A stretch of DNA of 37,272 nt from positions 1 to 37,272 of the IMG/VR virus record IMGVR_UViG_3300017989_000230. One strand, written 5' to 3'. Positions within the stretch are counted from its first letter, which is position 1, and every line of letters begins with the position of its first letter. Below the pieces are notes generated by a model, which was not told the DNA's origin, searched no databases, and was given only the letters and a program-made list of their open reading frames with translations. The translations under genes and the position numbers were made by a program. Source of the DNA: a virus. Shown in pieces: positions 1 to 34,770 of the stretch.

Positions 1-740
1 ACGAAGCTGATGTCGAAGAACCTCGGCTTCGTGTTGATGGCGAACGTCTTCTTCCCGGTGGCCGGGTCGATGTCGTTCATGTGGAACTTGAGGTGGTCGC
101 AGTACTCCGCCCTCGTCTTGGCCACGTTGCCGCAGATCGAGCAGATGTCGAACGGGACCTTGGTGCCCATCGAGACGTCGGGATAGTCCCCGTTCTCGAT
201 GCGCGACAGGAACGGCGCGCCGCCGTGCTGCTGAGCCAGCTCGTGATCGACGAGGACGACGAGCTCGACCCTCCGCATCTGCGGGTTGGGCACCGCCAGG
301 ATCACCTCGCCGAGCATCCTCGGTTTCGGAACCCGATTGACCTTCGAGAAGAAGTCGTAGTTGACGTGGTGCACGAAGGGGTGCGCACCGTAGAACGTGG
401 TATAGCCGTAGCCCTTGGCCGCGCAGTAGTTCCACGCGAACTTCCTCTTCGTCTCGAGGTCGGCGTAGCGCACCTTGTCCCATCCAGGAGGCTCGTAGAC
501 GAGCGAGTCCCAGGGGAACCAGTCGCCGTTGATGTTGCTGGACCAGAACTCTCCGGAGCCGAGTGCGTTGACTAGCACCGCTGTCTTGCCCGCCTGCGGC
601 TTCAGCGAGTGGATGAACTGCTCGACCTCGGGGACGATGACGGACGAGATCTTCTCCAGGCCACCGTCGCTGTAGCGGATGAGCTCGACCAGGGGGTTGC
701 CCTGGGGATCTCTGGCAGCGAACTCGACCCGCTTGTACAT
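1..740 (-). CDS. Putative prohead maturation protease, 3' end outside the window
   Basis: The frame is open from the left edge to an ATG at 740-738, giving 246 residues of an incomplete protein. The ATG overlaps the TGA stop of the upstream gene (TGATG), so the two are probably coupled. Visible features are SSNINGDWFP at about residues 67-76, GAHPFVHH at 118-125, PDVSMG at 187-192, and a Cys/His cluster DICSICG...YCDHLKFH at 198-220 that looks like a zinc knuckle. A His followed downstream by an xVS-G segment is compatible with the HK97/S78-type prohead protease superfamily. I recall similar NGD and CSICG segments in head proteins of large phages, but I could not run an alignment. The position beside other virion genes supports a head role. 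It could instead be a non-enzymatic head protein. Confidence 0.62.
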   Translation of the reverse strand, partial: MYKRVEFAARDPQGNPLVELIRYSDGGLEKISSVIVPEVEQFIHSLKPQAGKTAVLVNALGSGEFWSSNINGDWFPWDSLVYEPPGWDKVRYADLETKRKFAWNYCAAKGYGYTTFYGAHPFVHHVNYDFFSKVNRVPKPRMLGEVILAVPNPQMRRVELVVLVDHELAQQHGGAPFLSRIENGDYPDVSMGTKVPFDICSICGNVAKTRAEYCDHLKFHMNDIDPATGKKTFAINTKPRFFDISF

Positions 741-3343: not shown

Positions 3344-4030
3344 ATGGAAGATCTATGGTGCGGTTTCAGCGACGCCTTGAGTTTGCTGGGAGTGACAGCA
3401 CAGCACCTCAACCGCTACGCCAAGGAAGGAGTCATCCGCGAGACAAAGACGGACGGCAAAAGACTCTTCCTTCGGCAGGACGTGCAAGATGTGAATGAGG
3501 CGCGAGAGAGGATCGGCGATGTTCGACGCAACCCTCTTCGAGTGGCTGTGCTGCTCGTCCGCCTGGAGCGCACGGAGAGATTCACCGAGCACTTGATGGA
3601 GGTGATCGGCCACAACCCGAAGCCTGTCAACCTGGACATCCCAACCGCTATCGAGCTGTACCGCGCCTGTGTCCTGATGGCGGCCGAGGCTACTCCGAGC
3701 ATCGACAAGATCAGGTACTGGACCTACATCATCGACGGTCTTCGACAGGACCACTTCGAGATGATGACATCGCTGTCCAAGCAGCCATGGAGGATCTTCC
3801 TCCAGCTCGTCGACTCGTTCATCAGCCACCTCGCCGACAGCCCTCTCATCGAGACGGAGCTGCTGGTGCAGATACTCCACGACCGGCTTCTCCGAGCTCG
3901 CCGTAGCCTGCGTCAGGAGATCGTCGTCTTCGAGGCAGTCAACCAACGCGACTTGGGCGAGCTCGCCGCAGCGATGTGCGTAGCCCAGTCCGACATCGAC
4001 AGCTGGATCAATCCTGCGGATAAGGGTTAG
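3344..4030 (+). CDS. MerR/excisionase-like HTH DNA-binding protein, 228 aa
   Basis: Residues 8-50 read as a winged-helix module of the MerR/HTH_17 type: SDALSLLGVTAQHLNRYAKE gives the two helices, followed by GVIRETKTDGKRLFLRQDV as wing and strand. The remaining 175 residues are helical and unfamiliar; they could be a dimerisation or effector domain. A strong ribosome site (AGGAGGT) precedes the ATG. The gene is alone on the plus strand between two minus-strand virion blocks, shares a palindromic promoter region with one of them, and its last 23 bases overlap tail to tail with the terminase gene. These features suggest a transcription regulator of the virion genes, possibly autoregulated. The function is inferred from the HTH and position. 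Confidence 0.78.
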   Translation: MEDLWCGFSDALSLLGVTAQHLNRYAKEGVIRETKTDGKRLFLRQDVQDVNEARERIGDVRRNPLRVAVLLVRLERTERFTEHLMEVIGHNPKPVNLDIPTAIELYRACVLMAAEATPSIDKIRYWTYIIDGLRQDHFEMMTSLSKQPWRIFLQLVDSFISHLADSPLIETELLVQILHDRLLRARRSLRQEIVVFEAVNQRDLGELAAAMCVAQSDIDSWINPADKG

Positions 4031-5834
4031 GCTCGTCCTTCACCGGGTCCGTCGGCCGCAGAATGTCCGGCCGCGGATGCACCAGGATGGACACGAGGAA
4101 GCTCAGCACCAACGAGTGGAATGCGTCGTCAGTCGTGCCCGGGGTCTTGTCGTAGACGATCATTCGCTGCCGCTCGTTGTACTCGCTGTAGATGTTGAGC
4201 ATGTCCTGCCCGAACGGCTCCTGGAAGATGTCCCACGAGGGGAACGTGAAGACGTTGCGCCTCTTGATGGCATTGAAGACGTCGGACATCACCTCGGTGC
4301 GGTGGACCACGAAGCGGCCAAGACGATCCTCCCACCGGACCTTCTGGCTGGGAGCGGTGTACTGGTACTTCACCACCCGCTTCGACCCGTAGGCTCGAAC
4401 GAGCTTGTCGTTCCGGTCGAAGCCGCCGCCGTAGTCCACGCCGATGAGCCGCGGATTCCACGCGAGCACCAGGTCTTTGATGATGGAGATCTGCCGGTCG
4501 GGCTCCGTCTCCGGGCCCTCGAAGCGGTGCCAGAAGAACGGGGTGAACCTGTCCTCTAGGTAGGCAGCGATGTTGATGACGGTGAACGAGTTGTTCTCTC
4601 CTGTGCCCCAGTCGATGCCGAAGAAGACGTCGACGCCGGCGAGCCTCGTCTTCAACTCCAGCAGCCTGTCCGGGGACATCAACAGGTCCTTGTTGCAGTT
4701 GTCGATGACGTCCTGCTGCGCGAGTGGTCTGCTGCCGCTGTCGTAGGAGAGGCCAAGGACCTCGTTGTGGAACTGGGCGACCGAGTACTTCCTCATCTTG
4801 TCGAGGATGTCGCCCCACTCGATCCACGGCACCATCAGCTGCGGGATCCTGAACGCCTCGTAGGGCTGGTCGATCTTCGGATTGGCCATCCGGGCCCAGC
4901 GGGCCTCGGGGTGCATCGGGTTGATGAGCTCGCCGCAGTTGTCGCAGATGAGTCCCTTGAGGCCGACGTTATCCCCGTCGAGGATGTTCCAGTATCTGCC
5001 GGCCGCACCTTCGGCGTTCGATCCGCAGCGGTCGCAGGGAACCACCCACTCGCACTGGGTGGAGTAGTTGAGCCACCAGTACTCCATCGGGTTGTCGAGG
5101 GAGAGCGGCGTGCCCGAGTAGCAGAAGAACTTGAACGGCGAGTGGGACGCGCACTCCTCGATGACCGGCAGGTTCTCCAGCAGGATGGACTGCATCTCGT
5201 CGATGTCGATCATGTCGGCGGGGATGCCGCGGACACGGTCGGCGTTGAGGAATGCGTAGCGGAGGATCCAGGACGACCTGTTGATGAACTGCTTCTGGAA
5301 GACGTTGTCCATCAGCTCGGACGTGGTCCACGCCTTGAGCTTGGGGGACGTGAGGATGGGCTCCTTCAGTCGGTCCTGTGAGAACGTCTTCGTCTGCGTG
5401 TTGGAAGGAGAGACGTAGAGGATCCTGAAGCCTGGAATCATGCAGGCGTAGGCCATGCCCTTGTTGCCGAGGGTCGTGGACTTCTCGACCTGCCGACCAC
5501 ACTTCAGCAATACCCTCTTCGAGGGGGTGTCGTAGACGTCGATGAGGTACCGTCGCTCGCTGAAGCTGAACGGCACCATCCGCTGCTTGGCCGCGTCTCG
5601 GATCTCGACGGAGAACTCCACGAACTGCGACGGAGACGCCGAGATGAGATCGGCTCGGAGCTCGTCCACGTACTCCGCGTCGAACGTATCCAGGTAGTCG
5701 GAGGGGTCCTCGAGGTCCACTTCCTCTGCATAGTCCGGCTCGCCGTTGGGGAGGATGATGACCGGACGGTCCGACTCCGAGTAGTCGCAGATGCGGGAGA
5801 GCTCGAACTCTTCTGTGGGCACCGACCTGACCAT
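4008..5834 (-). CDS. terL: Terminase large subunit (DNA-packaging ATPase/nuclease)
   Basis: This is the motor that packages DNA into the prohead and cuts it. The 608-aa product has a Walker A-like loop GRQVEKST at residues 113-120, a Walker B segment MIDIDE at 208-213, and a motif III-like CYSGTP at 238-243. A CX2C pair (267/270) and a second (297/300) form a zinc ribbon. The RNase H-like nuclease shows GIDWGTG with Asp408, a later GVDYGGG strand, and a final DDAFHS. The Walker A has Glu where the usual Gly precedes Lys-Ser. The frame is open to a TTG at 5870, but the ATG at 5834 has GGAGG nine bases upstream. It is a single-gene minus-strand unit; no small terminase subunit was identified. 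Confidence 0.93.
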   Translation of the reverse strand: MVRSVPTEEFELSRICDYSESDRPVIILPNGEPDYAEEVDLEDPSDYLDTFDAEYVDELRADLISASPSQFVEFSVEIRDAAKQRMVPFSFSERRYLIDVYDTPSKRVLLKCGRQVEKSTTLGNKGMAYACMIPGFRILYVSPSNTQTKTFSQDRLKEPILTSPKLKAWTTSELMDNVFQKQFINRSSWILRYAFLNADRVRGIPADMIDIDEMQSILLENLPVIEECASHSPFKFFCYSGTPLSLDNPMEYWWLNYSTQCEWVVPCDRCGSNAEGAAGRYWNILDGDNVGLKGLICDNCGELINPMHPEARWARMANPKIDQPYEAFRIPQLMVPWIEWGDILDKMRKYSVAQFHNEVLGLSYDSGSRPLAQQDVIDNCNKDLLMSPDRLLELKTRLAGVDVFFGIDWGTGENNSFTVINIAAYLEDRFTPFFWHRFEGPETEPDRQISIIKDLVLAWNPRLIGVDYGGGFDRNDKLVRAYGSKRVVKYQYTAPSQKVRWEDRLGRFVVHRTEVMSDVFNAIKRRNVFTFPSWDIFQEPFGQDMLNIYSEYNERQRMIVYDKTPGTTDDAFHSLVLSFLVSILVHPRPDILRPTDPVKDEPNPYPQD

Positions 5835-5880
5835 GCTCATCATCCTCCCCGGGGATGCGCAGAAAGTCAACCACTACGGG

Positions 5881-5889
5881 TATAAGGGG
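5881..5889 (+). promoter_or_regulatory. TATAAGGG element, candidate phage promoter (copy 1)
   Basis: TATAAGGGG lies 44 bases upstream of the ATG at 5925, in the gap between the divergent terminase gene and the plus-strand island. The same octamer occurs at 20879 and 27805, each time in a divergent gap and reading toward plus-strand genes. No TTGACA-like box is seen 16-18 bases upstream. The following bases GTTTGGAATCC resemble those after copy 2. Confidence 0.5.
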
Positions 5890-7759: not shown

Positions 7760-7960
7760 CTACGAAGCTCGCAGCCGACGTAGCTCGTCACCGAACGCGG
7801 CCATCTTGACACGGACGAGGTGCATGGGGGATGCGACCTTCTCGGGCAGCTTCCCCGGAGGCGTGTGTGCCTCCCACTCCTTGGTCCTCTTGCGCCAGGT
7901 TGGATTGGTCTTCGACTTCCAGTGGAAGTAGCGCCGCTGCTTGTCGCTGACGAACGGCAT
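7760..7960 (-). CDS. Small basic phage protein (MPFVSDKQRR type), 66 aa
   Basis: The N-terminus MPFVSDKQRRYFHWKSKTNP resembles short phage proteins beginning with MPFVSxxQRR that are common near tail and head genes; their role is not known to me. It is rich in Lys, Arg and Trp. The ATG at 7960-7958 overlaps the ligase stop (TGATG); a GTG three bases earlier is a possible alternative. It is the last gene of the long minus-strand block and lies immediately behind the convergent terminator. Confidence 0.7.
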   Translation of the reverse strand: MPFVSDKQRRYFHWKSKTNPTWRKRTKEWEAHTPPGKLPEKVASPMHLVRVKMAAFGDELRRLRAS

Positions 7961-9519
7961 CACGCCTCCATCGGCTGGCGACCCTTATCGAGGTGCCACT
8001 CGCCTGTGAAGCGAGGCTTCGAGAGCCTCCCGCTCTTGAAGACCTTCTCGGCCGTGACCTTGGCTGCCCGTCCGATGAACCGTTCCGGGTGCTCGAGCAT
8101 CTCGGCCTTGAGCTGGTGGCTGAAGCCGGTGCCCACACGACCCACAGCAGGACCATCGGGAGTGGTGCTGTACTCGAAGCCCCCTGCCATCGGAGCGCGA
8201 GAGGGAGTGTCAGGCTTGTTCCTCTCCCGATAGATCTTCTTCACGTACACGTCGTGGTCATCGTCGAATTTGACCTTGGTAGGACGGCCACCCTCCAGAC
8301 CCCACGCTACGACACCCTCGGTGGTCAGTGGATGACGCCGGGCCTTGATGTCCTCGAACAGCTTCCTCTTCTCCTCCGGAGTTCGAGCGATCTCCGGAAT
8401 GCGTAGGTGCGGCATCGCCCGCTGGACCTTCTGCAGGACCTCCAGCTTCTTCTCGAATGGAGCATTGGTCATGTCCTGACCGCGGTAGCGGGCGACATCG
8501 AAGATGGTCTGCTGCAGCTTGGCACCGGCCTGCCTCTGCTTCTGTCGGCTCTTCCACACCGAGGAGTTTAGCATCCCGCCGATGTCCTGGGACTCGATGG
8601 CCTGCCCTTTCCCGTCGACAGCGATGGTCTCTCCACGCAGCACGATGTTGCCCAGGCCTGGCGGCACCTTCGTCTTCAGCATCTCGGGGATCTTGTGGGT
8701 GTGTTCGATGACCCCGCCCGGCCTCTCCGACTTCGGCTCTCGATAGGAGAACACGCGGGGGATCTTGTTGGCCTCGGTGGCCACCAGGTTGTGAGCGCCA
8801 TCGAGCTTCGGCATGAAGACGACGTTCTCGTCCTCGATGAGCTTCTCCACCCTGTCTGGCGCCTTCCGGGGCTTCACCTCTCGGTACGGAGGACGTCCGG
8901 TGGGCAAGCCCATCTTGCTCTGGTGCTTGGTCTTGTTATGAAGAGCCCAGACCACTCGGGGGTTGACGTTCTTCCCGATAGCGTTGTCCTTGCGGGCAGC
9001 CTCGATCTCCCTCTTGGTCAACCTGCGGAGCGCGAACTCCTCCGGGCCCCTCGAGGTGTACACGTTGAACCGGATCTTCCCCTCGAACGGCTTCCTCTTG
9101 TCGTCGACGTGGAAGACGTCAGCCTTCTCTCGAAGCGTGAGCTTCACCGGGCCGGCGCCGTACTGGCCCTTCGGAATCACTCCCTCCTGATCCATGTAGG
9201 CGAGGGTGTGGTCCGGCTGCTGAATGGCCAGACGGTAGCGACTCTCACCCGGCTTGGGCAGCTCGGCCTTGGGGATGGCGAACGAGTGGGCGATTCCGGT
9301 CCGTGGGTTGCCGAGCCGGAGGTCGAAGTGGGTCCTGGCCTTCTCCGCATCGTGCTTCTGGATAGAGATCTCCCACTGCTGTGGTCGATTCACCTTCTGC
9401 ACCTTGCGGGTCTTCTTCGGGTCGGGGATCCCGGGAGCGAACTCGCCTGTCGCGGACTCGAGGGTCTGCTGCTTGGCCTCCTTGAGGAGACCGAATACCC
9501 GTCGAGTCCGCTCGTTCAC
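7960..9519 (-). CDS. LigD-like 3'-phosphoesterase fused to ATP-dependent DNA ligase
   Basis: The product (519 aa, GTG start overlapping the upstream TGA) joins two DNA-repair domains. Residues 50-165 match the 3'-phosphoesterase domain of bacterial LigD: His56, HFDLRL at 64-69 (His64, Asp66, Arg68), DHTLAY with His104, and EGVIPKGQYGAG at 112-123. From about 230 follows an ATP-dependent ligase: motif I MPKLDGAH (Lys238), a GETIAVD strand, TTEGVVAW as motif IV, VKKIY as motif V, and a C-terminal OB-like region. The N-terminus has LLKEAKQQ, the K-x-A type seen in virion proteins here. No Ku or polymerase domain is visible. The gene sits between tail/virion genes, so packaging into the virion or late nick repair is possible. 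Function is well supported; location of action is not. Confidence 0.88.
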   Translation of the reverse strand: MNERTRRVFGLLKEAKQQTLESATGEFAPGIPDPKKTRKVQKVNRPQQWEISIQKHDAEKARTHFDLRLGNPRTGIAHSFAIPKAELPKPGESRYRLAIQQPDHTLAYMDQEGVIPKGQYGAGPVKLTLREKADVFHVDDKRKPFEGKIRFNVYTSRGPEEFALRRLTKREIEAARKDNAIGKNVNPRVVWALHNKTKHQSKMGLPTGRPPYREVKPRKAPDRVEKLIEDENVVFMPKLDGAHNLVATEANKIPRVFSYREPKSERPGGVIEHTHKIPEMLKTKVPPGLGNIVLRGETIAVDGKGQAIESQDIGGMLNSSVWKSRQKQRQAGAKLQQTIFDVARYRGQDMTNAPFEKKLEVLQKVQRAMPHLRIPEIARTPEEKRKLFEDIKARRHPLTTEGVVAWGLEGGRPTKVKFDDDHDVYVKKIYRERNKPDTPSRAPMAGGFEYSTTPDGPAVGRVGTGFSHQLKAEMLEHPERFIGRAAKVTAEKVFKSGRLSKPRFTGEWHLDKGRQPMEA

Positions 9520-14288: not shown

Positions 14289-14720
14289 CTACCCGTAGGA
14301 GGGCATCTGCGGCTGGGCCGGCTGCTGCGGAGCCTGGGGACTGCCGCCCAGCACGCGCCGCCCGACTCGCCACGCGCCGTAGCCGACGGCGACCGGAGCC
14401 ACCGCCCTGGTCACGCCTGCCTGGTGCAGTGCCCTGACACCACCCAGAACTCCTCGACCGCCAGCGGCTCCTCGCTGGAAGACCTCCCGGCCAGCCTGCA
14501 GAGCCTGCCCAGGGCTGCGAGCCATGTACGCGAGCTCGCCTGCACCCTGCCGAAGGTACTTGCCGGCCCCCGAGGCGAGCTGACCCAGAGACTTCCCGGC
14601 AACGACGCCCTTCAGGGCCTTGGCAGCTCCCAGCAGACCGGAGACGACACCCGCCTCCTTCTGGATGGTCTGCAGCTCGTCGTAGAACGCCTGCATCCTG
14701 ACCTGGTCGAGGTTCTCCAT
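14289..14720 (-). CDS. Small Gly/Ala-rich virion-block protein, 143 aa
   Basis: Unknown function. The N-terminus is helical and carries TIQKEAGVVSGLLG, followed by Gly/Ala-rich segments (ALKGVVAGKSLGQLASGAGK, AVAPVAVGYGAWRVGRRVLG) that could insert in a membrane, and a Pro/Gln tail. The ATG overlaps the stop of the RNA polymerase gene (TGATG), so the two are probably translated in a coupled way. Similar small proteins follow or precede other large virion genes here (22074-22412, 24346-25131). If the polymerase is a virion protein, this partner might help hold or eject it; that is speculation. Confidence 0.78.
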   Translation of the reverse strand: MENLDQVRMQAFYDELQTIQKEAGVVSGLLGAAKALKGVVAGKSLGQLASGAGKYLRQGAGELAYMARSPGQALQAGREVFQRGAAGGRGVLGGVRALHQAGVTRAVAPVAVGYGAWRVGRRVLGGSPQAPQQPAQPQMPSYG

Positions 14721-17700
14721 CAGTACGCTCCTGGCACCGCGGTGGGGTGCGGCTTGCCGAACTCAGCCCCGTAGACGATTCCTGGGATGGGGTGGATGCC
14801 GTGGATGTCGGACTGCCACCCCATTGCGGCCGCGTCGAGGACCGTGCTCTTGAGGTTCTGGTACTGCATCCGGGCCATCCAGTCCTCCTGCATGGAGAGC
14901 GGCACCTGTCGGATGCCCTGGAGGATGGGCCGGTGCATCACCGGCTTCTGGCCCTTGCCGACCTTCCTGTTGAACGCGGCCACCTGTGACGTCCTGGAGA
15001 TGTCTCCATGCACGAGGCCATCGTTGTCGCCCGGATCCTCCACCTTGCTCAGGTTGGTGAGACCTCGGACAACCACCTCGACGTTGCGGCGCTTGACACC
15101 CTGCTTGGCGTAGGCGTTCTCGAGCTCGCTGGAGAGGTAGTTCTGCGTCGTGGCGATGTTGGTCTTGTCCAACAGGTCATGTGGGTTGATCGGTCCCGAG
15201 CACAGCGGGTCGCCCTTCTTCACCTTCTGGCCGACCTTGAACCTGAACTCCCGGCCTGGAGGGACGTAGTGGCGCTCGCCGTTGATGAAGACGGACCAGC
15301 CACCGGCCGGGTCCTTGGCCACCCGCTGGACCACTCCGTTGGTCGAGGAGAGAGTGGCTGCACCCGGAAGCGTCTTCGGCATGTAGAGCAGCTGACCCAC
15401 TCGCTGGAACTGGCTCATCTGCTTGCCGACCCTGGCAGCGACTCCTCCGTGGTGGAACGTGTCGAGAGCCATCTGCGTTCCTGGCTCACCGATGGCCTGA
15501 GAGGAGATGACCCCGACGTTGGTCCCGGTCTCGTGCAGCTTGCCCTTCTCGTTCAGCCCGTAGCACTTCGCGCACATACCCTCTCCGTGCTCACACTTCA
15601 GGGGGGATCGAACGACGACGCGCTTCACGTTGTTGCTGCGGAGCTGACCGAGGACCTCTGGGGTGATCAGCGTGCCCTTCGGCAGGGTTCGGTTGCGCAG
15701 TTTCACCGACTTGGAGAGGAACCGGTCAGCGATGTCCCTCGAGCCGACGTCCATCAGGATGCCCTGCCCGGTGCCGCAGTCCTCTCCGGTGATGACCTGG
15801 TCCATCGTCGTGTTGACGATGTCCTTCGTGAGCGTGCCCGGCTCCTGCGTTCCCTTGGTCTTGCGGACCATGCCCATGCGGACGCCGTGCATCTTGGTCC
15901 AGAACTGAGCGGTGTCGAGCCCTTCCGAGTAGGACTTCTTGATCGGAACGGGCACCGTCCTCCCCTGGCTGTCCTTCACCAGCATCGGAGCGACGGCGAT
16001 CTGGCGGAACTGGTCCCAGTCACCTCGAGCTCCGGACTCCACCCACTTGTACATCCGGTTCCCGGAGGCCGAGAACTTCGGCTGCTCTACACGGTCGAGC
16101 TGCTCGGTGGCCTTGGTATAGACATCCACCAGCTTCGCGTCTCTCTCCTCCGGGCTCTTGACGGTGCGGCGGATGGCAGTTGCCTGCTTGTCCGCGGCGG
16201 AGAGGATCGCATCTCTCGTCGACTTGTCCGCCCTGAAGTCCTGGAGACTCATCGAAGCTGCGTCTTCGTAGGACCAGCGGTTTCCCATACGAAGCAGCTT
16301 GGTAGCCGTGGTTCCGTAGTCGTTCTTCGCCTTCTGTCCAGTCACCTGGAGCACGGTCTTGAGCTGACCCTTGTCCATCCGGAACTTGGGGTCGTGGAGG
16401 ATCTTCTCCTTCATCCCCGTGGCTTCCGGCACGGCCTGGGCGAGCAGGATTCTACCCGCCGTTGTGGCGTTGCCTCCCACGTTGATGACCTCGTTGATTC
16501 CGACCTTGTCTTTGGCCGCAGCCCTCGCGGCTTCCTCGACGGTCTTGAACTTCTGACCGGTGCCCTTCCCCCACTCGCTCAGGTTGTAGAGACCGATCTG
16601 GGCCTCGTGCCCCGGTACCCCCATCACCTTCCCGGTCGCGGGAGAGAAGAGATTGTTCGAGGGGAACATCTTCCTGGCCTCGTCGACAGCCTCGTGAGTC
16701 ACTGGCACGAACGCGGCCATCGTGTCGCCGTCGAAGTCAGCGTTGTAGCCGCCGGTGACGAGAGGGTGGATCTGGATGGCCTGCCCGCCGACGATCTTCG
16801 GCTTGAATGCCTGCACCCCGAACTTGTGGAGGACTGGGTCACGCTTCATCAACAGCGGCCGCTCGTCCACCACCTTGTCGAGCACCTTCCTCACGACAGG
16901 GTGGTTCTCCTTGATCCGTCGCTGAGCCTCACCGGGCGTGTAGCCGTGGGTCTGCACGAGCTCGCGGACGATGAACGGCTTGTACATCTCCCGGGCCATC
17001 TTGAACGGCAGCCCCACCTCATCGAAGCCGAGGTTGGGCTCGGGGATGATGGTGGAACGACCGGAGAGGTCCTGGCGCTTGGCCGTCAGCCGTTTCTGGA
17101 AGTAGCCCTCCTTCGGCGCCGCACCGGCGATGATGTGCATCAGGCCCTTGGGCTTCTTCGGCTCGGGACGAGGGTTGAACCCCTGCAGCGCCTTCAGTCC
17201 ATCGTAGAGCTCCCACTGCAGAGGCAGACGGTCCTCTGGAGGCAGCGCTGGGTCGAACTCCTTGAGCTTCTCGTTGGTGAGCGCCAGGTCCTTGTAGAAC
17301 TCGTTGGAGTCCTCGTACCGCAGGCTGCCAGTCGGAAGCTGGCGCACAGGGCGCATCTTCGGGGGGAGCACCGGCAGGTGCCTCATCGTGTAGGCTTCGG
17401 CCGGCTTCATTCCCGTCTTGTTGAGCGCCTGCAGCATCTTCATCTTCCGGTTGGCCCGGTTGAGGAGTGCGCCGCTCAGGTTAGGCAGCCTCTTCTGGAG
17501 GTCGGACATCTCCTTCTTCACATCGACCTGCGAGAGCATCCCGACGATGGCTTCTGGTCCGGTCTTCCCTCCGATCTGCTGGGTCCCGCGCATCACCGAG
17601 TTGAAGTCCTGCTTCCTCATGCCCGTGAGCGAGAGGATGGCCGGCTCAAACGTCGGGTTGGGCATCCGATCAGCGAGCGTGATGTGTGACCACTTCTCTC

Positions 17701-20700
17701 CCTCGAGCCCACCAGTGACCTTCGGATCGAACAGACCTCCGGACTCGGGGCGCAGGTCCTTGCCGCGGACACGCCGGCCTGGGTTCTTGAGCTCGCCGTT
17801 GGACATCTCGAGGACGTCCTTGTCGGTGAGTGGAACGAGTCCGAGGCTGCTGACGCCTTGCTTCTTCACGTCGACGCCGAGGACGTTGAGCATCCCCTTG
17901 AATTTCTCGTAGGCGAACGGCACCTTCGGCGGAGGGATGGGCAACCCCTCCTGGATGTCGAGCCAGAAGTCATCGTTCTTGTCCGCCTTGAGCGTCTGCA
18001 TCTCCCGGATGTTGGACCTGGCGCCGTGGGCGAGCATCGCGTACATCCCGAGGGAGCCGATGGACTGGGCCCCGTGCGGACCTCCTCCCTTGGGGATGTT
18101 GGTCATGTCGTAGGCCTCGGCCGAGCGGGCCGACATCTTCTTCTCGACCTGGTGCTTCTCCTTCAGGATGTACTGGTTCCCGGTGAGCACCTGACCGATG
18201 GGCTTCTTCGTGACCGGGTCGTAGAGTGTCTCGGTGTCAGAGAGTCCCCTCTTCTTCAGCTCCTCCTGGATGGCCTCGGTCTGGTCCTGGTTCTTGTCCG
18301 AGAAGTTCCTGGAGAGGAATGTCCTGCCATCCTTCTCTGCGATCTTCCCGGCCGCGGTCTCGAGCACCTGCCCGAGGTTGATACGGCCCGGCACGCCGGC
18401 GGGATTGAGTGCGATCTGGATCGGCTTTCCCTCTCCATCATGGGGCATCTCGTGGTCGGGGACGATCTGGGTGATGATACCCTTGTTGCCGTGGCGGCCA
18501 ACCACCTTGTCCCCCACCTCGGCAGGCTCGTCGGTGCGGACGTGGACGGTAACCTTTCCCTTGTTCTTGACGACGCGGACGACGGTGCCCTTCGTCGGCT
18601 TGTCCCACGACAGACTGGCGTCGTTGTAGGGCTTGATGATGCCCTTGCCGGCACGCTTCAGCACCTGCTGCTCGGCGTTGAGGTCCTCGACTTTGCGGAG
18701 CCCGGCGACGATGACGTCTCCCTCCTCCACCTTCTGGCCCACCCGGATGATCCCATCGTCTCCGAGCTTCTTCGCGTTCGCCTCTAGCAGCTTCGTTCCG
18801 TAGTAGGCGTCGAAGAGGCCCTTGTCGTGGACCACACCCTCGGACGCCTCGAACGACGGCTGGTGCAGATGCTCGGAGGTCAACTTCTGCGCTGCGCTCT
18901 CCGAGATGACCACCCCGTCCTCGAAGTTGTAGCCCTTCAGTGGCAGGTAGCCGACCTTGAGGTTAGTACCGAGGGCGAGCTGCCCACCTCTGGTGAAGTT
19001 GCTGTCGGCCAGGGTCTGGCCCTTCTCGACCTTGTCGCCCTTCTTGAACAGCGGCTCGTTGCTCAGGTAGCTCTTCCCATCGTTGAGTGGGAAGTTGTCG
19101 TAGAGCTGAACCTTGTGCGTCTGTCCGCTGCCGTCACGTATCGTCATGTGACGACTCGTGACGCCGACGACCTCCCCAGAAACCGGAGCACTCGGGGTCG
19201 ATAGCTTTCCGGCCACCTCCTCGAACGTGTTCTTTCCGAGCGAAGCGTTCTGGACAAGAGGTGCCTCTCGGTACTTGAGCGGCACGGCCTGCTGCTGCTG
19301 GCGCGACGCCGTCATCGCCCGAGTGCCCTCGTTGCTGTGAAGGAACGGGATGAGGTTGGTGGCCAGACCGAACATCGCCGGCGCGCTGGGCATCACGTAG
19401 TCGGCCTGACGCAGGCTGGTGATCTCGTCGACGTCGCCGCCGGCACCGGACACCGCGATCTTCCCCTTCGCCTTCGGCTTGCCCTTGTCCCAGGTCACCT
19501 GGTCGGGGAACACAACCGTGCTGCGTCCGAGGGTGGCGACGTCCACCTCCTCCATCTTCCCGGTCTTGGTATTGTACGCCTTGGTGTAGAGGTTCTTGCC
19601 TCTCTTGTAGGCACCAGAGGCCATCTGCAACGTGACTCCGGTCTTCGGACCCTCCGGTGTGTTGACCGGGTCGAGGAACCCCAGCGACGAGGGGCTCACC
19701 GACTTGGCATCGTCGGTGATGGCGTGGGCCTCCTGGATACCGTGCTCTCCAGTGATGGTGGTCTGCATGTGACCCGAGATCATCTCGAGGGGGTTGGTCT
19801 GGTCGGGCCTCTGCGAGAGCTGCGTGTTGGTGAAGAAGAGCTTGACCGGCTTGCTGAAGAGGTCCGGTGGCAGGATCTCACGAGCCGAGGCCTTCCGGTC
19901 GATGTTGTTGCGCAGCCGCGCCTTGATCTTCCGTCCGTTCTCCCGAATGCGCTCGGAGATGAAGTCCTCGACACCAAGGATCTCCTTGAACTCGAGGGAG
20001 TCCCGATCGTCCGGGTTCTGGTCTCCGCGGCTGATGCCTAGCAGCTTCGACGAGGATCTCGCGAGGGCCTCTCCGTTCACAGACGAGAACGCCTTGCCTA
20101 GCGTGGCCTGCGTCGTCTCTGGGTAGATCTTGGTGTTGCCGAAGGTGTCCCGGACGACTGCCCGGGCGGCGTCCATGTCGGTGGGCTCCTTACCAGTGGC
20201 CGCCTTGACGAACTTGCGGAGCTCCTTCTCCCCATCGACGGCCATGTTGGCCCGGTAGATCTCGTCGCCCCACATCTGACGCATCCCGTCCTCGGAGACG
20301 CCGAGGGTCTTGAGGATGGGAGCGAGGGCGATGTTGGAGTCCCCGTACTTGATCGAGAACTTCCTCTGGTCGGGCTTGAAGTCGACGTTGAATCCACGGC
20401 CGCGGGCGAGGTTGAACTGGCTGGTGAGCTCCCCGTTCCTGCGCATCATGTGGTAAGCGCCGGACTTCAGCCGGAGCTGGTTGTCCACCTGCCACTCGGT
20501 TCCGTCCACGATGTAGGAATAGCGAGAGGTCAGCTTGGGCAGGCGCGCGACCTGCATCTCTCGCTCGTCGAGGACCTTCCCGGTTCCCTTCTCCACCAGA
20601 CGCATCTTCGCCCTGACCGGCACGCCCCAGGTACGCTCTCCGAACTTGGCCTTGGCCTGGGACTGGATGTCGTCTGGGTCGAGCTTGTCGTCGAACTCGA

Positions 20701-20815
20701 TCTTCTGTAGCTCCAGCCGGTGGTTACGGCCCTCGAACGGGAAGAAGTCACCGATGGCCTCGGCTGTCTGCCTCTTCAGGACCTCGAATGACTCCCGCGG
20801 GTCGATGCTCGGCAT
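14720..20815 (-). CDS. Single-chain RNA polymerase, fused beta and beta-prime
   Basis: One 2031-aa chain contains both large subunits of a bacterial-type RNA polymerase. Beta part, about 1-950: GTEWQVDNQL at 105-114, fork region QRPDQTNPLEMI at 335-346, NTPEGP at 385-390, GYNFEDGVVISE at 628-639, GDKVVGRHGNKGI at 768-780, NPAGVPGRINLGQ at 804-816, KKMSARS at 892-898. Beta-prime part, from about 1026: GGLFDPKV, HLPVLPPKMRP at 1146-1156, catalytic NADFDGDTM at 1358-1366 (Asp1360/1362/1364), bridge helix about 1631-1676, Cys1680 with Cys1741/1748/1751 as zinc site 2, trigger loop AIGEPGTQMALDTFHHGG at 1774-1791. The beta-prime N-terminal zinc finger is absent and the clamp coiled coil is short. 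E. coli beta plus beta-prime total about 2750 residues. AAGGAGA precedes the ATG. Its place between virion genes suggests a packaged polymerase, but that is inference. Confidence 0.96.
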   Translation of the reverse strand: MPSIDPRESFEVLKRQTAEAIGDFFPFEGRNHRLELQKIEFDDKLDPDDIQSQAKAKFGERTWGVPVRAKMRLVEKGTGKVLDEREMQVARLPKLTSRYSYIVDGTEWQVDNQLRLKSGAYHMMRRNGELTSQFNLARGRGFNVDFKPDQRKFSIKYGDSNIALAPILKTLGVSEDGMRQMWGDEIYRANMAVDGEKELRKFVKAATGKEPTDMDAARAVVRDTFGNTKIYPETTQATLGKAFSSVNGEALARSSSKLLGISRGDQNPDDRDSLEFKEILGVEDFISERIRENGRKIKARLRNNIDRKASAREILPPDLFSKPVKLFFTNTQLSQRPDQTNPLEMISGHMQTTITGEHGIQEAHAITDDAKSVSPSSLGFLDPVNTPEGPKTGVTLQMASGAYKRGKNLYTKAYNTKTGKMEEVDVATLGRSTVVFPDQVTWDKGKPKAKGKIAVSGAGGDVDEITSLRQADYVMPSAPAMFGLATNLIPFLHSNEGTRAMTASRQQQQAVPLKYREAPLVQNASLGKNTFEEVAGKLSTPSAPVSGEVVGVTSRHMTIRDGSGQTHKVQLYDNFPLNDGKSYLSNEPLFKKGDKVEKGQTLADSNFTRGGQLALGTNLKVGYLPLKGYNFEDGVVISESAAQKLTSEHLHQPSFEASEGVVHDKGLFDAYYGTKLLEANAKKLGDDGIIRVGQKVEEGDVIVAGLRKVEDLNAEQQVLKRAGKGIIKPYNDASLSWDKPTKGTVVRVVKNKGKVTVHVRTDEPAEVGDKVVGRHGNKGIITQIVPDHEMPHDGEGKPIQIALNPAGVPGRINLGQVLETAAGKIAEKDGRTFLSRNFSDKNQDQTEAIQEELKKRGLSDTETLYDPVTKKPIGQVLTGNQYILKEKHQVEKKMSARSAEAYDMTNIPKGGGPHGAQSIGSLGMYAMLAHGARSNIREMQTLKADKNDDFWLDIQEGLPIPPPKVPFAYEKFKGMLNVLGVDVKKQGVSSLGLVPLTDKDVLEMSNGELKNPGRRVRGKDLRPESGGLFDPKVTGGLEGEKWSHITLADRMPNPTFEPAILSLTGMRKQDFNSVMRGTQQIGGKTGPEAIVGMLSQVDVKKEMSDLQKRLPNLSGALLNRANRKMKMLQALNKTGMKPAEAYTMRHLPVLPPKMRPVRQLPTGSLRYEDSNEFYKDLALTNEKLKEFDPALPPEDRLPLQWELYDGLKALQGFNPRPEPKKPKGLMHIIAGAAPKEGYFQKRLTAKRQDLSGRSTIIPEPNLGFDEVGLPFKMAREMYKPFIVRELVQTHGYTPGEAQRRIKENHPVVRKVLDKVVDERPLLMKRDPVLHKFGVQAFKPKIVGGQAIQIHPLVTGGYNADFDGDTMAAFVPVTHEAVDEARKMFPSNNLFSPATGKVMGVPGHEAQIGLYNLSEWGKGTGQKFKTVEEAARAAAKDKVGINEVINVGGNATTAGRILLAQAVPEATGMKEKILHDPKFRMDKGQLKTVLQVTGQKAKNDYGTTATKLLRMGNRWSYEDAASMSLQDFRADKSTRDAILSAADKQATAIRRTVKSPEERDAKLVDVYTKATEQLDRVEQPKFSASGNRMYKWVESGARGDWDQFRQIAVAPMLVKDSQGRTVPVPIKKSYSEGLDTAQFWTKMHGVRMGMVRKTKGTQEPGTLTKDIVNTTMDQVITGEDCGTGQGILMDVGSRDIADRFLSKSVKLRNRTLPKGTLITPEVLGQLRSNNVKRVVVRSPLKCEHGEGMCAKCYGLNEKGKLHETGTNVGVISSQAIGEPGTQMALDTFHHGGVAARVGKQMSQFQRVGQLLYMPKTLPGAATLSSTNGVVQRVAKDPAGGWSVFINGERHYVPPGREFRFKVGQKVKKGDPLCSGPINPHDLLDKTNIATTQNYLSSELENAYAKQGVKRRNVEVVVRGLTNLSKVEDPGDNDGLVHGDISRTSQVAAFNRKVGKGQKPVMHRPILQGIRQVPLSMQEDWMARMQYQNLKSTVLDAAAMGWQSDIHGIHPIPGIVYGAEFGKPHPTAVPGAY

Positions 20816-20838: not shown

Positions 20839-20868
20839 ACTCTACCAGAACCGCCCGCAATCAGTCCA
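20839..20868 (-). promoter_or_regulatory. Weak sigma70-like promoter upstream of the RNA polymerase gene
   Basis: On the minus strand TGGACT (20868-20863) and TAGAGT (20844-20839) are 18 bases apart, each matching 4 of 6 consensus bases. They lie about 25 bases upstream of the ATG at 20815. The spacing equals that of the other minus-strand promoters in this window. Confidence 0.35.
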
Positions 20869-20878
20869 GTGTCAGCGG

Positions 20879-20886
20879 TATAAGGG
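20879..20886 (+). promoter_or_regulatory. TATAAGGG element, candidate phage promoter (copy 2)
   Basis: GGTATAAGGG lies in the divergent gap between the RNA polymerase gene and the plus-strand island, 51 bases before the first island start at 20930. The bases after it (TGTTAGAAGTCC) resemble those after copy 1. No TTGACA-like box is seen at normal spacing. Confidence 0.5.
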
Positions 20887-21013: not shown

Positions 21014-21123
21014 TCTTCTGGTCCGCTCTCGCCGGCTTCTGCGGCTACGTCTCCCAGCGTCTACTCATTGACAGCTGGGAGGCATCCGGGCGAGCCTCTA
21101 GCGGGAGGGATCATGCTCGATGA
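20998..21123 (+). CDS. Small membrane protein, 41 aa
   Basis: From ATG 20998 (preceded by GGGGAGG) the frame encodes a hydrophobic N-terminal helix, FWRIVFWSALAGFCGYVSQ, then a polar tail. The stop overlaps the start region of the next gene. One transmembrane helix and small size would fit a host-takeover or lysis-related peptide, but no family is recognised. Confidence 0.5.
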   Translation: MFWRIVFWSALAGFCGYVSQRLLIDSWEASGRASSGRDHAR

Positions 21124-21454
21124 GTACCACCGCAGGCTCAAGAAGGTGAACCTGGAGACGGACCTGGAGGACACAGGAGTCCCGAATGCTCCCTCGAGGG
21201 ATACGGTCATCGCAGCGTGCCCGTTCCTCTTCGAGGACTCCGACGGTGATCGGCTGATGTGCTCGGCCCTCGCCTGCGCCGACTGCCCCCACTTCGACGA
21301 TCGATTCGGTGACAGGTCCGACCTTCGCTGGATCTGCTCGTTCTGTGACCAAGACCAGATCTCCCTGGGGTACTACACCCTGGGGACGTGCCCAGCCTGC
21401 GGGCTGGAGGACGCCCTCCTGCAGGCGTCCGTTTCCAAACGGAGGAGACCATGA
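21113..21454 (+). CDS. Zinc-ribbon protein of unknown function, 113 aa
   Basis: The start is the ATG at 21113 with GGGAGGG upstream; the frame extends to 21068 but that would overlap the small membrane gene more. The protein has Cys-rich segments: AACPFLF, LMCSALACADCPHFDD, then WICSFCDQDQ and GTCPACGLED. The last two CX2C pairs, spaced about 16 residues apart, look like a classic zinc ribbon. Such ribbons occur in transcription factors and many phage proteins. Being divergent from the phage RNA polymerase gene, a role in transcription is attractive but unproven. The stop overlaps the next start as ATGA. Confidence 0.75.
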   Translation: MLDEYHRRLKKVNLETDLEDTGVPNAPSRDTVIAACPFLFEDSDGDRLMCSALACADCPHFDDRFGDRSDLRWICSFCDQDQISLGYYTLGTCPACGLEDALLQASVSKRRRP

Positions 21455-22017
21455 CCGATCCGAAGCTCACACCCACCGAACGCTGCCTCGCCGCAGCGCG
21501 AGCGGCGATCCCCGACCTCATCAGATCGACGATGACCATCGAGCCCGTCACCCCCGAGGAGGTCTCGGCCCTGAACGCGATGATCGAGCGCGAGTCCGAC
21601 CGGGCGTTCGCCAACATCCTGCAGGTGTTCGAGCGCCGCAACCGGGAGACTGGGTCTCGCATCGACTCCCTCCCAGAGGAGCACCGCAACATCGGCGAGC
21701 TCCCTGACCGCTTCATCGAGCCCCTCGGCCGCTCCCTCGCCGCGCACGTCCTGTTCAAGAGCATCCTCGTCGCTGGCCAACACCTCAAGTCCGAGGACGA
21801 GGGGAACTTCAACCTCGCCGGGATGCAGGGCATGGCCCAGGCGCGCAAGGTCCTCGGCGCCGGCGGACAGTTCGCACTGGTCCTCGTCGACTACCGCAAC
21901 TGGTGCTACGCGGTGGACGTGAAGGGGCTCGAGTCAGCGAACCTGCCGCCCGAGGTGCAGTCCGTCATCCAGTCGGCCGCGGCGGTGGCCGGCAAGAAGA
22001 AAGACGAACTGAACTAG
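21451..22017 (+). CDS. Unknown protein, 188 aa
   Basis: Not recognised. The ATG at 21451 has GGAGGA upstream and overlaps the previous stop; an earlier ATG at 21388 is less likely. The N-terminal two thirds are helical and charged (EVSALNAMIERESDRAFANI), and the C-terminal part seems to hold strands (GGQFALVLVDYRNWCYAVDV). The tail is Ala- and Lys-rich. It is the last gene of the island and is followed by a strong terminator. High GC at third codon positions supports it being a real gene. Confidence 0.8.
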   Translation: MTDPKLTPTERCLAAARAAIPDLIRSTMTIEPVTPEEVSALNAMIERESDRAFANILQVFERRNRETGSRIDSLPEEHRNIGELPDRFIEPLGRSLAAHVLFKSILVAGQHLKSEDEGNFNLAGMQGMAQARKVLGAGGQFALVLVDYRNWCYAVDVKGLESANLPPEVQSVIQSAAAVAGKKKDELN

Positions 22018-22075: not shown

Positions 22076-22412
22076 ACTTCGGAGCCAGACGCGGGGCGTA
22101 GGCCTTCCTGGCTGCTTGGTAGCCCTTGATGCTCCCCTGCTGCTCCCCGAGCTGTATGCCCTTCTCGAGCCCTCTCTTCAACCCGCTCCGCTCTCCGAGG
22201 CCGTGCATCCCCTTGGCGGCGAGTCCGGTACCAGCCCCGACCAGCGCTCCTTTGACGGCTCGGCCGAGGGCTCCCTGTCGCTTGCCCGTCTCCGGGTCCT
22301 TCTTCGCAGTCAGACCCCCGATCACCGCCCCGGTACCGGCTCCCAGCGCTCCGGCGGCGCCGTAGCTCAGCGCGGTCTTCTCTAGCATCTGGATGGCACG
22401 TCCCGGCTTCAT
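22074..22412 (-). CDS. Small Gly/Ala-rich protein downstream of the portal, 112 aa
   Basis: Unknown function. After MLEKTALSYGAAG comes a Gly-zipper-like segment (AGALGAGTGAVIGGLTAKK) and a second (GALVGAGTGLAAKGMHG), then a basic C-terminus. Gly-zipper segments of this kind often insert into membranes or form pores. The ATG overlaps the portal stop (ATGA). It is the last gene of its block, meeting a convergent terminator. A role as internal virion or DNA-ejection protein is possible but not shown by sequence. Confidence 0.78.
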   Translation of the reverse strand: MKPGRAIQMLEKTALSYGAAGALGAGTGAVIGGLTAKKDPETGKRQGALGRAVKGALVGAGTGLAAKGMHGLGERSGLKRGLEKGIQLGEQQGSIKGYQAARKAYAPRLAPK

Positions 22413-24349
22413 CCCATCGCCGCCCTTCTCGGAGGACGCTGCTCCGGCATCGGCTGCTGTCGAGCGTCCAGAGGATTCTCGTTACCTCCTCGCTGCTCCT
22501 GCAGGATGCGAGCAACGAGGCTGAACATCTGCGGGTTCCTCTGCCGCATGAACTTCACCATCCGGTTGGCCTCCTCCGGGTCCGACTGCGCCACCTGGTT
22601 CAGGTAGCTGACGGCCCTTCGGGCCTCGGTCATGAGGTCGATGCCTCCGCCGCGGCTGGCCACGGTCAGCTGGGACTCACCCGGCAGCGCACCAGGCGCC
22701 TCGGTGGGAGCCGGCTGGGGTTCGGGAGGCGGCGGCGCAGCCGTTCCGGTCTCCATCTCCCGCTGCGCCTCAGCCTGGGCGAGCATCTGTGCCTTCATTC
22801 CCTCGGCCTGGGCCCGGTTGGTGTAGCGCATGTTCACGAGCTGGGCCTCGCCCTGCACCGCAGCGGAGCCCACCTGGGTCCGGCGCTGCGTCTCGATGGA
22901 CTTGGCCAGCTCGGAGTCGAGGTAGGTCTGCTCGACCTGCGGATCGAGATCGGCCTCGATGAGGAGCGTCCGGTCGGATACCTTACCCGCCTGGTTGAGC
23001 TGCTGGAAGAAGAACAGCCGCTGCAGGTCGTCGGCCATCTTGAACCGACGGAACTCCACGTCCACCTTGGCCCAGCCAAGGAAGTTGGCGACCTTGTGGA
23101 GCACGAAGTCCCGCACGAGGTGCAACAGGCTGTGCCGGTATCCGAGGAAGTGGTTCTCGAGCATCCGCATCGAGACGTTGCTGCCGCTGTACTGTAGACC
23201 CCCGAAGATGAACTCCTGGGGCACGCCCATACCAGCGATGATCGTCTCCGCCTCCATCCGGAGCTCCTGGTGAAGGATCATCGCCCGTCCGTTGCCACCG
23301 ATGATCTGGTGGCCGATGGGCAGCGGCAGCACCGGGATGTAGTTCGGGTCCAGCTTCCACTTCGAGATCTCTCCCTCGATGCGGTGGGTCCACTCGTCGA
23401 GATTGATAGTCGTGTAGGGGTCGCTGGTCCCGGAGCCTGCCTGCGGGAACAGGACGCGCAGAGGGACGATGTGCTCCTGCGCGATGGCCTCCTGCCCCTT
23501 CCGCAGGATCTGCATGTAGTAGGCGTCCTTGAGCACCGGCAGGATCATGGGCATCCCCCAGCCCATGTCCTTCTGTGCGATGGTCGGCCGCTTCATGTGG
23601 AAGAGGTTGTCCGGGTTGAACAGGACAGACTTCCCCTTCCGCATCGCCTCGATGTAGATGTCGGGTACGGTCTCGATGACCTCCCGTTTCCCGATGGTGA
23701 TGTCGTTCTTCAGCTGCAGAGGCAGACGGTAGTAGTAGCGGTGCTCACCCGTGGTCGGGCAGTACTCGATGTCGACATGCTCCGGGTCCCAGCGAACGAG
23801 CCGGATCTCCCGGACGGAGGGTACGTGGTGGTCGAGAACACCAGCCTCTCCTGCGTGTCCACACTTCGGGCAGCCCTTGATGTGGTACTTCAGGTTACGG
23901 AAGTCGTACTTCATCCCGCTGCGAGTGTCCTTGATGTCCCAGTGCGATCCGCACTGCTTGCAGACGAGATACTTCTTGAACGGGTAGTAGACCGAGACGA
24001 AGCAGTTGCCGTAGGCGTAGTAGTCGAGCCCGACCTCGATGCTGAACGGGCGCAGCTTCAGCACGTCTTCGATGAGCGTGGTGTAGTCACCGAGCAGCTT
24101 GTTGTCCTGGGTCTTCACGATGAGGGGGGTGATGGCGTACTCGGCCATCTTGAAGACCACGGCGTTGATGAGTGGGTGGACCAGGAAGTAGTACCTGCAC
24201 CACCGCATCAGCTGCTTGAAGTTGGATGGGAGGAACGTGCTTCCGATGTCGAAGAACGGGCTGGGGTACCTCACCCCGCTGCGAGTAGAGAATGGAGTAC
24301 GGAATCGGTTGAATCCGCCGACTGATCCGCCGATGCCCGTGACGCTCAT
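22409..24349 (-). CDS. Portal protein
   Basis: The portal is the ring at the capsid vertex through which DNA enters and leaves. This 646-aa product has the usual layout: N-terminal helical part, a wing region, a crown-like helix-rich segment (MILHQELRMEAETIIAGMGV, then LLHLVRDFVLHKVANFLGWA), and a Gln/Ala/Pro-rich C-terminus. The segment GVPQEFIFGGLQYSGSNVSM at about 385-405 is like the portal motif in which a prohead-bound loop follows the stem. An inserted zinc ribbon, Cys130/133 and Cys160/163, is unusual. Start ATG overlaps the upstream stop (ATGA). Length fits large-phage portals. The terminase is encoded 16 kb downstream, not beside it. Confidence 0.85.
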   Translation of the reverse strand: MSVTGIGGSVGGFNRFRTPFSTRSGVRYPSPFFDIGSTFLPSNFKQLMRWCRYYFLVHPLINAVVFKMAEYAITPLIVKTQDNKLLGDYTTLIEDVLKLRPFSIEVGLDYYAYGNCFVSVYYPFKKYLVCKQCGSHWDIKDTRSGMKYDFRNLKYHIKGCPKCGHAGEAGVLDHHVPSVREIRLVRWDPEHVDIEYCPTTGEHRYYYRLPLQLKNDITIGKREVIETVPDIYIEAMRKGKSVLFNPDNLFHMKRPTIAQKDMGWGMPMILPVLKDAYYMQILRKGQEAIAQEHIVPLRVLFPQAGSGTSDPYTTINLDEWTHRIEGEISKWKLDPNYIPVLPLPIGHQIIGGNGRAMILHQELRMEAETIIAGMGVPQEFIFGGLQYSGSNVSMRMLENHFLGYRHSLLHLVRDFVLHKVANFLGWAKVDVEFRRFKMADDLQRLFFFQQLNQAGKVSDRTLLIEADLDPQVEQTYLDSELAKSIETQRRTQVGSAAVQGEAQLVNMRYTNRAQAEGMKAQMLAQAEAQREMETGTAAPPPPEPQPAPTEAPGALPGESQLTVASRGGGIDLMTEARRAVSYLNQVAQSDPEEANRMVKFMRQRNPQMFSLVARILQEQRGGNENPLDARQQPMPEQRPPRRAAMG

Positions 24350-33769: not shown

Positions 33770-34366
33770 ATGGCGAGACGGATGAAAGAGGACCAGCTCC
33801 CGGACGATCTCAGGCAGATGCTGGACGAGTTCCGGGAGGCCGACGACGAGCTCACCGGGATGGTCGAGGAGGCCAAGAAGGAGAACCCTGCGTTCTTCTC
33901 CCACCTCGAGGCCATCCAGGTACGCCGCAACACCAAGATGGCGGAGATCAAGACGGCGCTGAAGCAGTTCTTCCTACCGCACGCCGAGGACGACCCGCAG
34001 CTGGGCGAGAGCCGCTTCGGCGAGTTCCTGGTCCAGCCCCGCAGGTCGCGTGGGTGGGTCGTCGAGAGGTTCCTCGAGGCCGCTGACGAGCTCGGCGTGT
34101 TCGAGGCGCTGTCGCAGACCGACCCGCCGGTCATCATCGCGCTGCCGGACTACCACTTCAACGCCGACATCGCCAGGGACCTGGGCATCTACCAGGACCT
34201 CGTCGACCGGAACGTGGTCCAGGTCACGCTCAACTTCCAGATCGATGGCAAGGCCGCCGAGGACAACTGCGACGGTCAGGTCTTCGAGCAGCTGAGGGAG
34301 AAGGCATGGGAGGAGAAGGTCAGCTCCCTGGCGGTCAGCACGCCGGAGGAGAGCAAGCCGCTGTAG
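33770..34366 (+). CDS. Unknown coiled-coil-containing protein, 198 aa
   Basis: The N-terminal 70 residues are charged and probably form a coiled coil (DDLRQMLDEFREADDELTGM, AIQVRRNTKMAEIKTALKQF); the rest is a small mixed domain (PPVIIALPDYHFNADIARDL, VQVTLNFQIDGKA). The coiled coil followed by a compact domain recalls Gam-like nuclease inhibitors, but the resemblance is loose and I would not name it so. The ATG at 33770 has GGAGGATG upstream; frames reach further upstream but run into the glycosylase gene. Confidence 0.72.
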   Translation: MARRMKEDQLPDDLRQMLDEFREADDELTGMVEEAKKENPAFFSHLEAIQVRRNTKMAEIKTALKQFFLPHAEDDPQLGESRFGEFLVQPRRSRGWVVERFLEAADELGVFEALSQTDPPVIIALPDYHFNADIARDLGIYQDLVDRNVVQVTLNFQIDGKAAEDNCDGQVFEQLREKAWEEKVSSLAVSTPEESKPL

Positions 34367-34770
34367 TGCTCAAGGCCCGGGCTCCTCGTGTCTTCGGCAC
34401 GATCGAGGTGTTCTACGAGGACCCGAAGGACGGCCGTCAGAAGCTCACCAGAGACGGCTACAACTGGACCGGCTGGGACATCGACGAGGAGATCCAGAAC
34501 CTCGGAGGGAGGATGAAGATGTCGGACGACCTGAAGGAGATCGTCGGTGACGGGCAGGGCCGCGTGTCGGCCGGGCTCGACATCGGGGAGAAGGAGTACG
34601 GGAACGGTGTGGGCGTGTCGGTGATGGTCTCTGTCGCCTGCGACCAGAGCCGTCCCGGGATGGTGGAAGGCTTCGAGCTGGCGGCTCAGCTCACCGAGTT
34701 CTTCCTCGGGCGCCTCTGGGAGAGGGGCGTGGAGACCTACCGCGAGCTGACGCGAACGGTGCCGGGCTGA
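34366..34770 (+). CDS. Unknown protein, 134 aa
   Basis: Not recognised. The GTG at 34366 shares a base with the previous TAG (TAGTG). The product has strands at the start (FGTIEVFYEDPKDG), a Gly-rich middle (GRVSAGLDIGEKEYGNGVGV) and a C-terminal helix (AAQLTEFFLGRLWERGVETY). Its own stop overlaps the next ATG (TGATG). High third-position GC supports it as a real gene of the rightward cluster. Confidence 0.72.
   Translation: MLKARAPRVFGTIEVFYEDPKDGRQKLTRDGYNWTGWDIDEEIQNLGGRMKMSDDLKEIVGDGQGRVSAGLDIGEKEYGNGVGVSVMVSVACDQSRPGMVEGFELAAQLTEFFLGRLWERGVETYRELTRTVPG

Follow-up and report, generated by a model that had tools for sequence, protein, structure and literature searches.

The window, by which we mean the whole 37,272-base virus record analysed here, carries on its minus strand an uninterrupted frame, from ATG to TGA, for a protein of 2031 amino acids in which the whole beta subunit of bacterial RNA polymerase is followed by beta-prime (Table 1). 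Pfam matches follow the order beta to beta-prime in the chain (Rpb2_6, 1.6e-57; Rpb1_2, 3.4e-30; Rpb1_5, 1.7e-23; Rpb2_3, 1.5e-7), which also matches bacterial RNA polymerase chains by sequence over its whole length. In AlphaFold2 models the beta half had a mean pLDDT of 85.5 and Foldseek TMq values of 0.75-0.80 to bacterial beta, and the beta-prime half a mean pLDDT of 86.2 and a best TMq of 0.87 to bacterial beta-prime. The best structural matches shown for both halves were all bacterial beta or beta-prime, across the whole length. The initial annotation had described one fused chain and proposed comparing its predicted structure with bacterial core polymerase; the frame, the Pfam order and the models bear the description out, and both halves match the bacterial folds.

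Table 1 Features of the window (positions in the 37,272-base record)
Feature	Position	Strand	Basis or remark
Head maturation protease-like protein, truncated at the window edge	3..740	-	36% identity to Arash gp222; phrog_18299, E 0.0019
Large terminase	4008..5843	-	phrog_675, E 4.5e-58
Candidate promoter element GGTATAAG	5879..5886	+	faces the RNase HII block, plus-strand ORFs starting at 5925
Conserved virion-block protein, 701 aa	10974..13079	-	downstream of RNAP; syntenic in 70/76 relatives
Spike/baseplate-hub-like protein, 398 aa	13089..14285	-	weak profiles: DUF2345 0.061, phrog baseplate hub 0.099
Small Gly/Ala-rich protein, 143 aa	14289..14720	-	TGATG, its start codon overlapping the RNAP stop
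Single-chain beta/beta-prime RNA polymerase, 2031 aa	14720..20815	-	frame, Pfam, alignment, structure matches
Beta-prime half without zinc site 1, aa 988-2031	14723..17854	-	AlphaFold2 and structural match, alignment
Trigger loop region, His1788 (catalytic His)	15437..15514	-	His in 57/57 relatives
Zinc site 2 Cys cluster C1741/C1748/C1751	15563..15595	-	fourth Cys, C1680, at 15776-15778; alignment
Bridge helix, aa 1635-1657	15845..15913	-	helix 661-683 of beta-prime model; aligns with the bridge helix of bacteria
NADFDGD active-site triad, aa 1358-1364	16724..16744	-	three Asp in 57/57 relatives
Beta half, aa 1-987	17855..20815	-	AlphaFold2 and Foldseek; boundary from Klebsiella RpoB/RpoC alignment
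Beta catalytic lysines K770, K778 (KVVGRHGNK)	18482..18508	-	alignment; 57/57 relatives
Candidate promoter element GGTATAAG	20877..20884	+	gcAA box 20 bases upstream (20857-20860); faces ORFs 21068-22017
Small Gly-rich protein adjoining portal, 112 aa	22074..22412	-	ORF
Portal protein	22409..24349	-	33% identity to Arash gp204

Residues were compared in an alignment of ten bacterial RpoB/RpoC sets with 57 fused phage chains and those of Arash, Vibrio D69, Carin-5 and YerA41. The catalytic residues are intact (E. coli numbering): E813/D814, K1065, K1073 and R1106 of beta, and R425, D460, D462, D464 and the trigger-loop H936 of beta-prime, nearly all of them in 57/57 fused chains. The claim that all universal elements occur in order held for NADFDGD, the bridge helix, the trigger loop and zinc site 2 (retained in 54-55 of the 57), but not for zinc site 1, whose N-terminal ribbon in beta-prime (E. 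coli-type residues ~64-96) is cleanly gone from every fused chain and from Arash and Vibrio D69; Carin-5 retains it. The junction is nearly seamless, with few residues between the beta C-terminus and the bacterial beta-prime segment ending GLF, the first beta-prime residues being lost. The chain was also said to be a nearly complete bacterial-like fusion. Near-complete it is, but the N-terminus and the C-terminal tail of beta-prime are deleted and the sigma surface is rewritten: the clamp-helix sigma contacts R275 and E295, invariant in the sampled bacteria, are replaced throughout the phage chains. Positions 514, 526, 529, 531 and 572 of the rifampicin pocket are unlike those of sensitive bacteria, so the phage polymerase is predicted to be rifampicin resistant.

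Scanning IMG/VR with the protein and with profiles yielded hundreds of matches, with at least 150 non-redundant contigs among the matches listed. Six of the 150, in which the polymerase ends at the contig edge, were left out of the fusion count; in all 144 non-redundant contigs spanning both halves, among the matches listed, the polymerase is a single chain. Mis-joining of split genes during assembly was ruled out because these 144 contigs agree. Twenty-two chains exceed 2350 aa, and the insertions tested carry LAGLIDADG and intein-splicing domains; in contig L067 (14174-15655) a 494-aa intein-like insertion with both domains interrupts NADFDGD between its G and final D. An insertion of 355 aa that matches LAGLIDADG was also seen inside the terminase large subunit of L009 (22810-23875) and in L011. 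Four of the 144 fused contigs are continuous only with TGA read as sense. In-frame TGA codons occur in the polymerase genes of L073 (9953-16024, 11 codons), L085 (9971-16042, one), L086 (9992-16030, five) and also L193, and the apparently broken frames of L073, L085 and L086 are explained by this reading. Since several of the in-frame TGA codons align to conserved Trp columns, the phages of L073, L085 and L086 probably read TGA as Trp, as probably does that of L193.

Cellular rpoB-rpoC fusions, as in Helicobacter or Wolbachia, have the beta-then-beta-prime order and a near seamless junction, and the phage chain shares both. A recent capture of such a host-type fusion, which the initial annotation had suggested looking for, is nevertheless extremely improbable. 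Identity to the window chain is 35-50% within the family, 31-32% for Arash and Vibrio D69 and 26-29% for every bacterium tested; among the bacteria, identity to the Klebsiella reference is 48-86%. In trees built from bacterial and phage sequences, all phage sequences were split from the bacteria (SH 1.0), the window chain did not group with the cellular sequences, and the beta and beta-prime halves, whose separate phylogenies had also been proposed, agreed on this split. Recent host capture is excluded because the group branches apart from all sampled bacteria at this low identity, and the phage rather than host origin claimed for the gene stands. The loss of zinc site 1, which the fused chains share with the Arash and Vibrio phages, is a further point against capture. 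The concatenated tree placed the fused clade beside Arash and Vibrio (SH 0.98); on this relationship the beta tree was not monophyletic and the beta-prime tree gave SH 0.27. A scan of genome contigs gave one relative, in a contig from a Deltaproteobacteria MAG, which is too little for naming a host.

Fusion had been thought unusual for a phage. It is common within its own lineage, and bacterial-like phage beta and beta-prime are already known from the multimeric RNAP-encoding Caudovirales, or mReC (Weinheimer and Aylward 2020, PMC7481178). Like the window family, these are IMG/VR contigs of tailed phages whose beta and beta-prime are recognisably of the bacterial type, carry NADxDGD and lie near portal and terminase; they form a clade apart from cells, and the window family one apart from the sampled bacteria. 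In the text of that paper beta and beta-prime are subunits, crAssphage is the one case for which fusion is mentioned, and neither virion packaging nor promoters appear (PMC7481178). The window family probably overlaps the mReC phages, since its sequences pass their NADxDGD filter; Arash (AADYDGD) and Carin-5 and YerA41 (NLDYDGD) would fail it. The named mReC representatives (metagenomes 3300017989 and 3300000786) were not among the matches listed in our IMG/VR scans. The capsids detected in mReC were of the gp23 type, PF07068 (PMC7481178), whereas those of the window relatives match phrog_2522; a PF07068 search gave no match in 21 records, with the control equally silent, and the window has no capsid gene. 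The window terminase matches PF05876, not PF03237, a frequent rather than strict feature of mReC, matched by only 17 of 31 terminases (PMC7481178).

The closest cultured comparison is with the Salmonella phage Arash (Gp206/Gp216) and the Vibrio phages D69, D148 and D181, which share with the window chain homology over the whole length at 31-33% identity, the same junction and the loss of zinc site 1. They also share with the window family the order of portal, small ORF and polymerase and a GGTATAAG-like intergenic motif, and the Arash protein is found in virions. They differ in that a second gene encodes the part of beta-prime beyond the active site and in that the triad reads AADYDGD; Arash and Vibrio D69 also encode a sigma-like protein, unlike most fused records. 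Yersinia phage YerA41 and Cobetia phage Carin-5 likewise carry phage beta and beta-prime homologs, but as separate genes in a replication-gene neighbourhood. The virion polymerase of the phiKZ type (Chimalliviridae), a two-barrel enzyme that works without alpha, offers a functional precedent (reviewed in PMC13282480), although it is highly diverged and made of about five chains, with two paralogous enzymes per phage. P23-45 gp96, the other near functional precedent (PMC10770324), and crAss-like gp66 are one-chain two-barrel virion polymerases, as the window chain would be, but have little that is bacterial-like outside the two barrels, and gp96 has no clamp and is part of a tape measure protein (PMC10770324). 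With its whole-length match to the bacterial subunits, the window chain thus falls outside the crAss/YonO/P23-45 type.

The gene lies among virion genes, as had been stated, and its position is conserved: in 60 of the 67 loci with room a same-strand portal precedes it, the spike-like protein follows it in 61 of 76 relatives and the terminase lies downstream in 56 of 76. The matches of the window terminase and portal (Table 1) agree with this. The baseplate spike of the initial annotation is plausible, though the profile matches are weak. At the level of sequence, the translational coupling to the 143-aa ORF is borne out by a TGATG overlap with GGAG upstream, and homologues of this ORF were found in only 4/76 relatives. 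Two plus-strand ORFs without a Pfam match (21068-22017), preceded by a GGTATAAG site, lie between the portal/112-aa ORF pair and the polymerase gene; in Arash the portal, the small ORF and the polymerase gene directly adjoin. Also inside the late strand block, at 7960-9519 (minus strand), a fusion joins a LigD-type 3'-phosphoesterase domain to an ATP-dependent DNA ligase domain. Many virion-block proteins of the window and Arash structural proteins have, near the N-terminus, a K-[TQSE]-A motif (EKTAL, KEAGV, TKQAA), perhaps a processing signal. A predicted tRNA-Leu (CAG) at 34300-34396 overlaps both the end of the ORF at 33782-34366 and the beginning of the one that follows. Exactly one PF00623-bearing ORF was found in each of 11 large fused records, although these may not be complete and a second, diverged enzyme could escape detection. 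No alpha subunit was found in 19 large fused records and two isolates; among the 19, sigma region 2 was found in three and region 4 over the cut-off in four.

In eight fused-polymerase records, the window and seven large ones, a bipartite intergenic motif, gcAA-N16-GGNATAAG, stands before genes opposite the virion-block strand. With a home-made gene caller and a consensus chosen from the same data, GGNATAAG had 91 intergenic sites, of which 79 face the gene that follows and 12 do not, and another 32 in coding sequence; for permuted patterns (n=150) the number of facing sites averaged 17.8 (sd 8.3, maximum 49). Eighty of the intergenic sites lie opposite the polymerase gene and 11 on its own strand, a bias that partly reflects gene layout; sites in related genomes are not independent of one another. 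The gcAA box, which is weaker, lies 17-20 bases upstream of GGNATAAG. TATAAT had no similar bias (12 facing, 10 not facing, 40 coding). Unsupervised intergenic k-mer counts gave GGTATAAG in 12 of 70 intergenic stretches of Arash (0.1 in shuffles), TGTTATAAG in Vibrio D69, and likewise the words GGTATAAG, GGCATAAG and GGAATAAG in several fused-RNAP genomes. Both exact sites in the window face plus-strand ORFs. Judged by co-occurrence, the motif is compatible with being an early promoter for a packaged polymerase. No clear late-strand promoter motif was seen in the fused-RNAP records, only GAAGATC-like enrichment; GAAGATC/AAGATC words, possibly a late signal, are enriched on the virion-block strand (L278-L323, L333-L340; AAGATC 39 against 12.7 expected).

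We consider it fairly probable that the fused chain is a virion-packaged single-chain core polymerase which, without a phage-encoded alpha, starts early transcription at gcAA-N16-GGNATAAG. The gene would be expressed late, together with the portal and baseplate genes, and its product taken up into the virion, probably in the head close to the portal, to enter the cell with the DNA. The one polypeptide would fold beta and beta-prime into a bacterial-type crab-claw core, so that a phage-encoded alpha would not be needed. Early transcription would then start at the lineage-specific motif, before the genes opposite the virion-block strand, with the polymerase initiating unaided or helped by a phage factor packaged alongside it, and not by host sigma-70. 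We infer injection, promoter recognition and one-chain activity. More tentatively, and with slightly more doubt than belief, a packaged, self-sufficient one-polypeptide core that uses neither alpha nor host sigma and has its own early promoter may characterize a deep tailed-phage lineage, of which the Arash-like phages would be a branch split after the active site.

Packaging, which the initial annotation had suggested, is supported by homology rather than for this protein itself. In mass spectrometry of purified Arash particles, Gp206 (beta and the N-terminal part of beta-prime) gave 3516 spectra, the most of any protein, Gp216 (the C-terminal part of beta-prime) 1210 and the sigma Gp10 467 (PMC10585845). 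That the Arash polymerase is among the most-detected virion proteins supports packaging, and for the fused chain we infer it from Arash, whose own chain is split. The particle list also holds replication and nucleotide enzymes, and its authors considered early transcription or carry-over of abundant enzymes (PMC10585845). The window enzyme could accordingly be a non-virion polymerase, made from the late operon to transcribe middle or late genes in the cell, with carry-over explaining the Arash particles; its gene lies within the late strand block, and a single such ORF per large record could serve any stage. We regard this as unlikely, as Gp206 gave more spectra than the major capsid protein (1333), though it is also long (PMC10585845), the motif stands mainly before genes opposite the late block, and the gene order beside the portal has been kept over a deep lineage. 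Recruitment of host alpha and/or host sigma-70 into a chimeric holoenzyme would suit the near-complete bacterial subunits and phage records with no alpha and few sigma genes. The replacement of R275 and E295 throughout, and a motif that ends in G, not T, while TATAAT shows no comparable bias, speak against such a hybrid, to which we give rather little credence.

Cellular RNA polymerase has separate beta and beta-prime subunits on an alpha scaffold. A natural one-chain, near-complete core found over a deep phage lineage would make the roles of alpha, zinc site 1 and the sigma contacts tractable, with Arash and the Vibrio phages as cultured models. The candidate promoter motif of the fused family, gcAA-N16-GGNATAAG, is new here, and as a shared motif it makes the early transcription of uncultured phages testable from sequence. 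If the polymerase is packaged, bacterial-type transcription would be tied to DNA entry in these phages.
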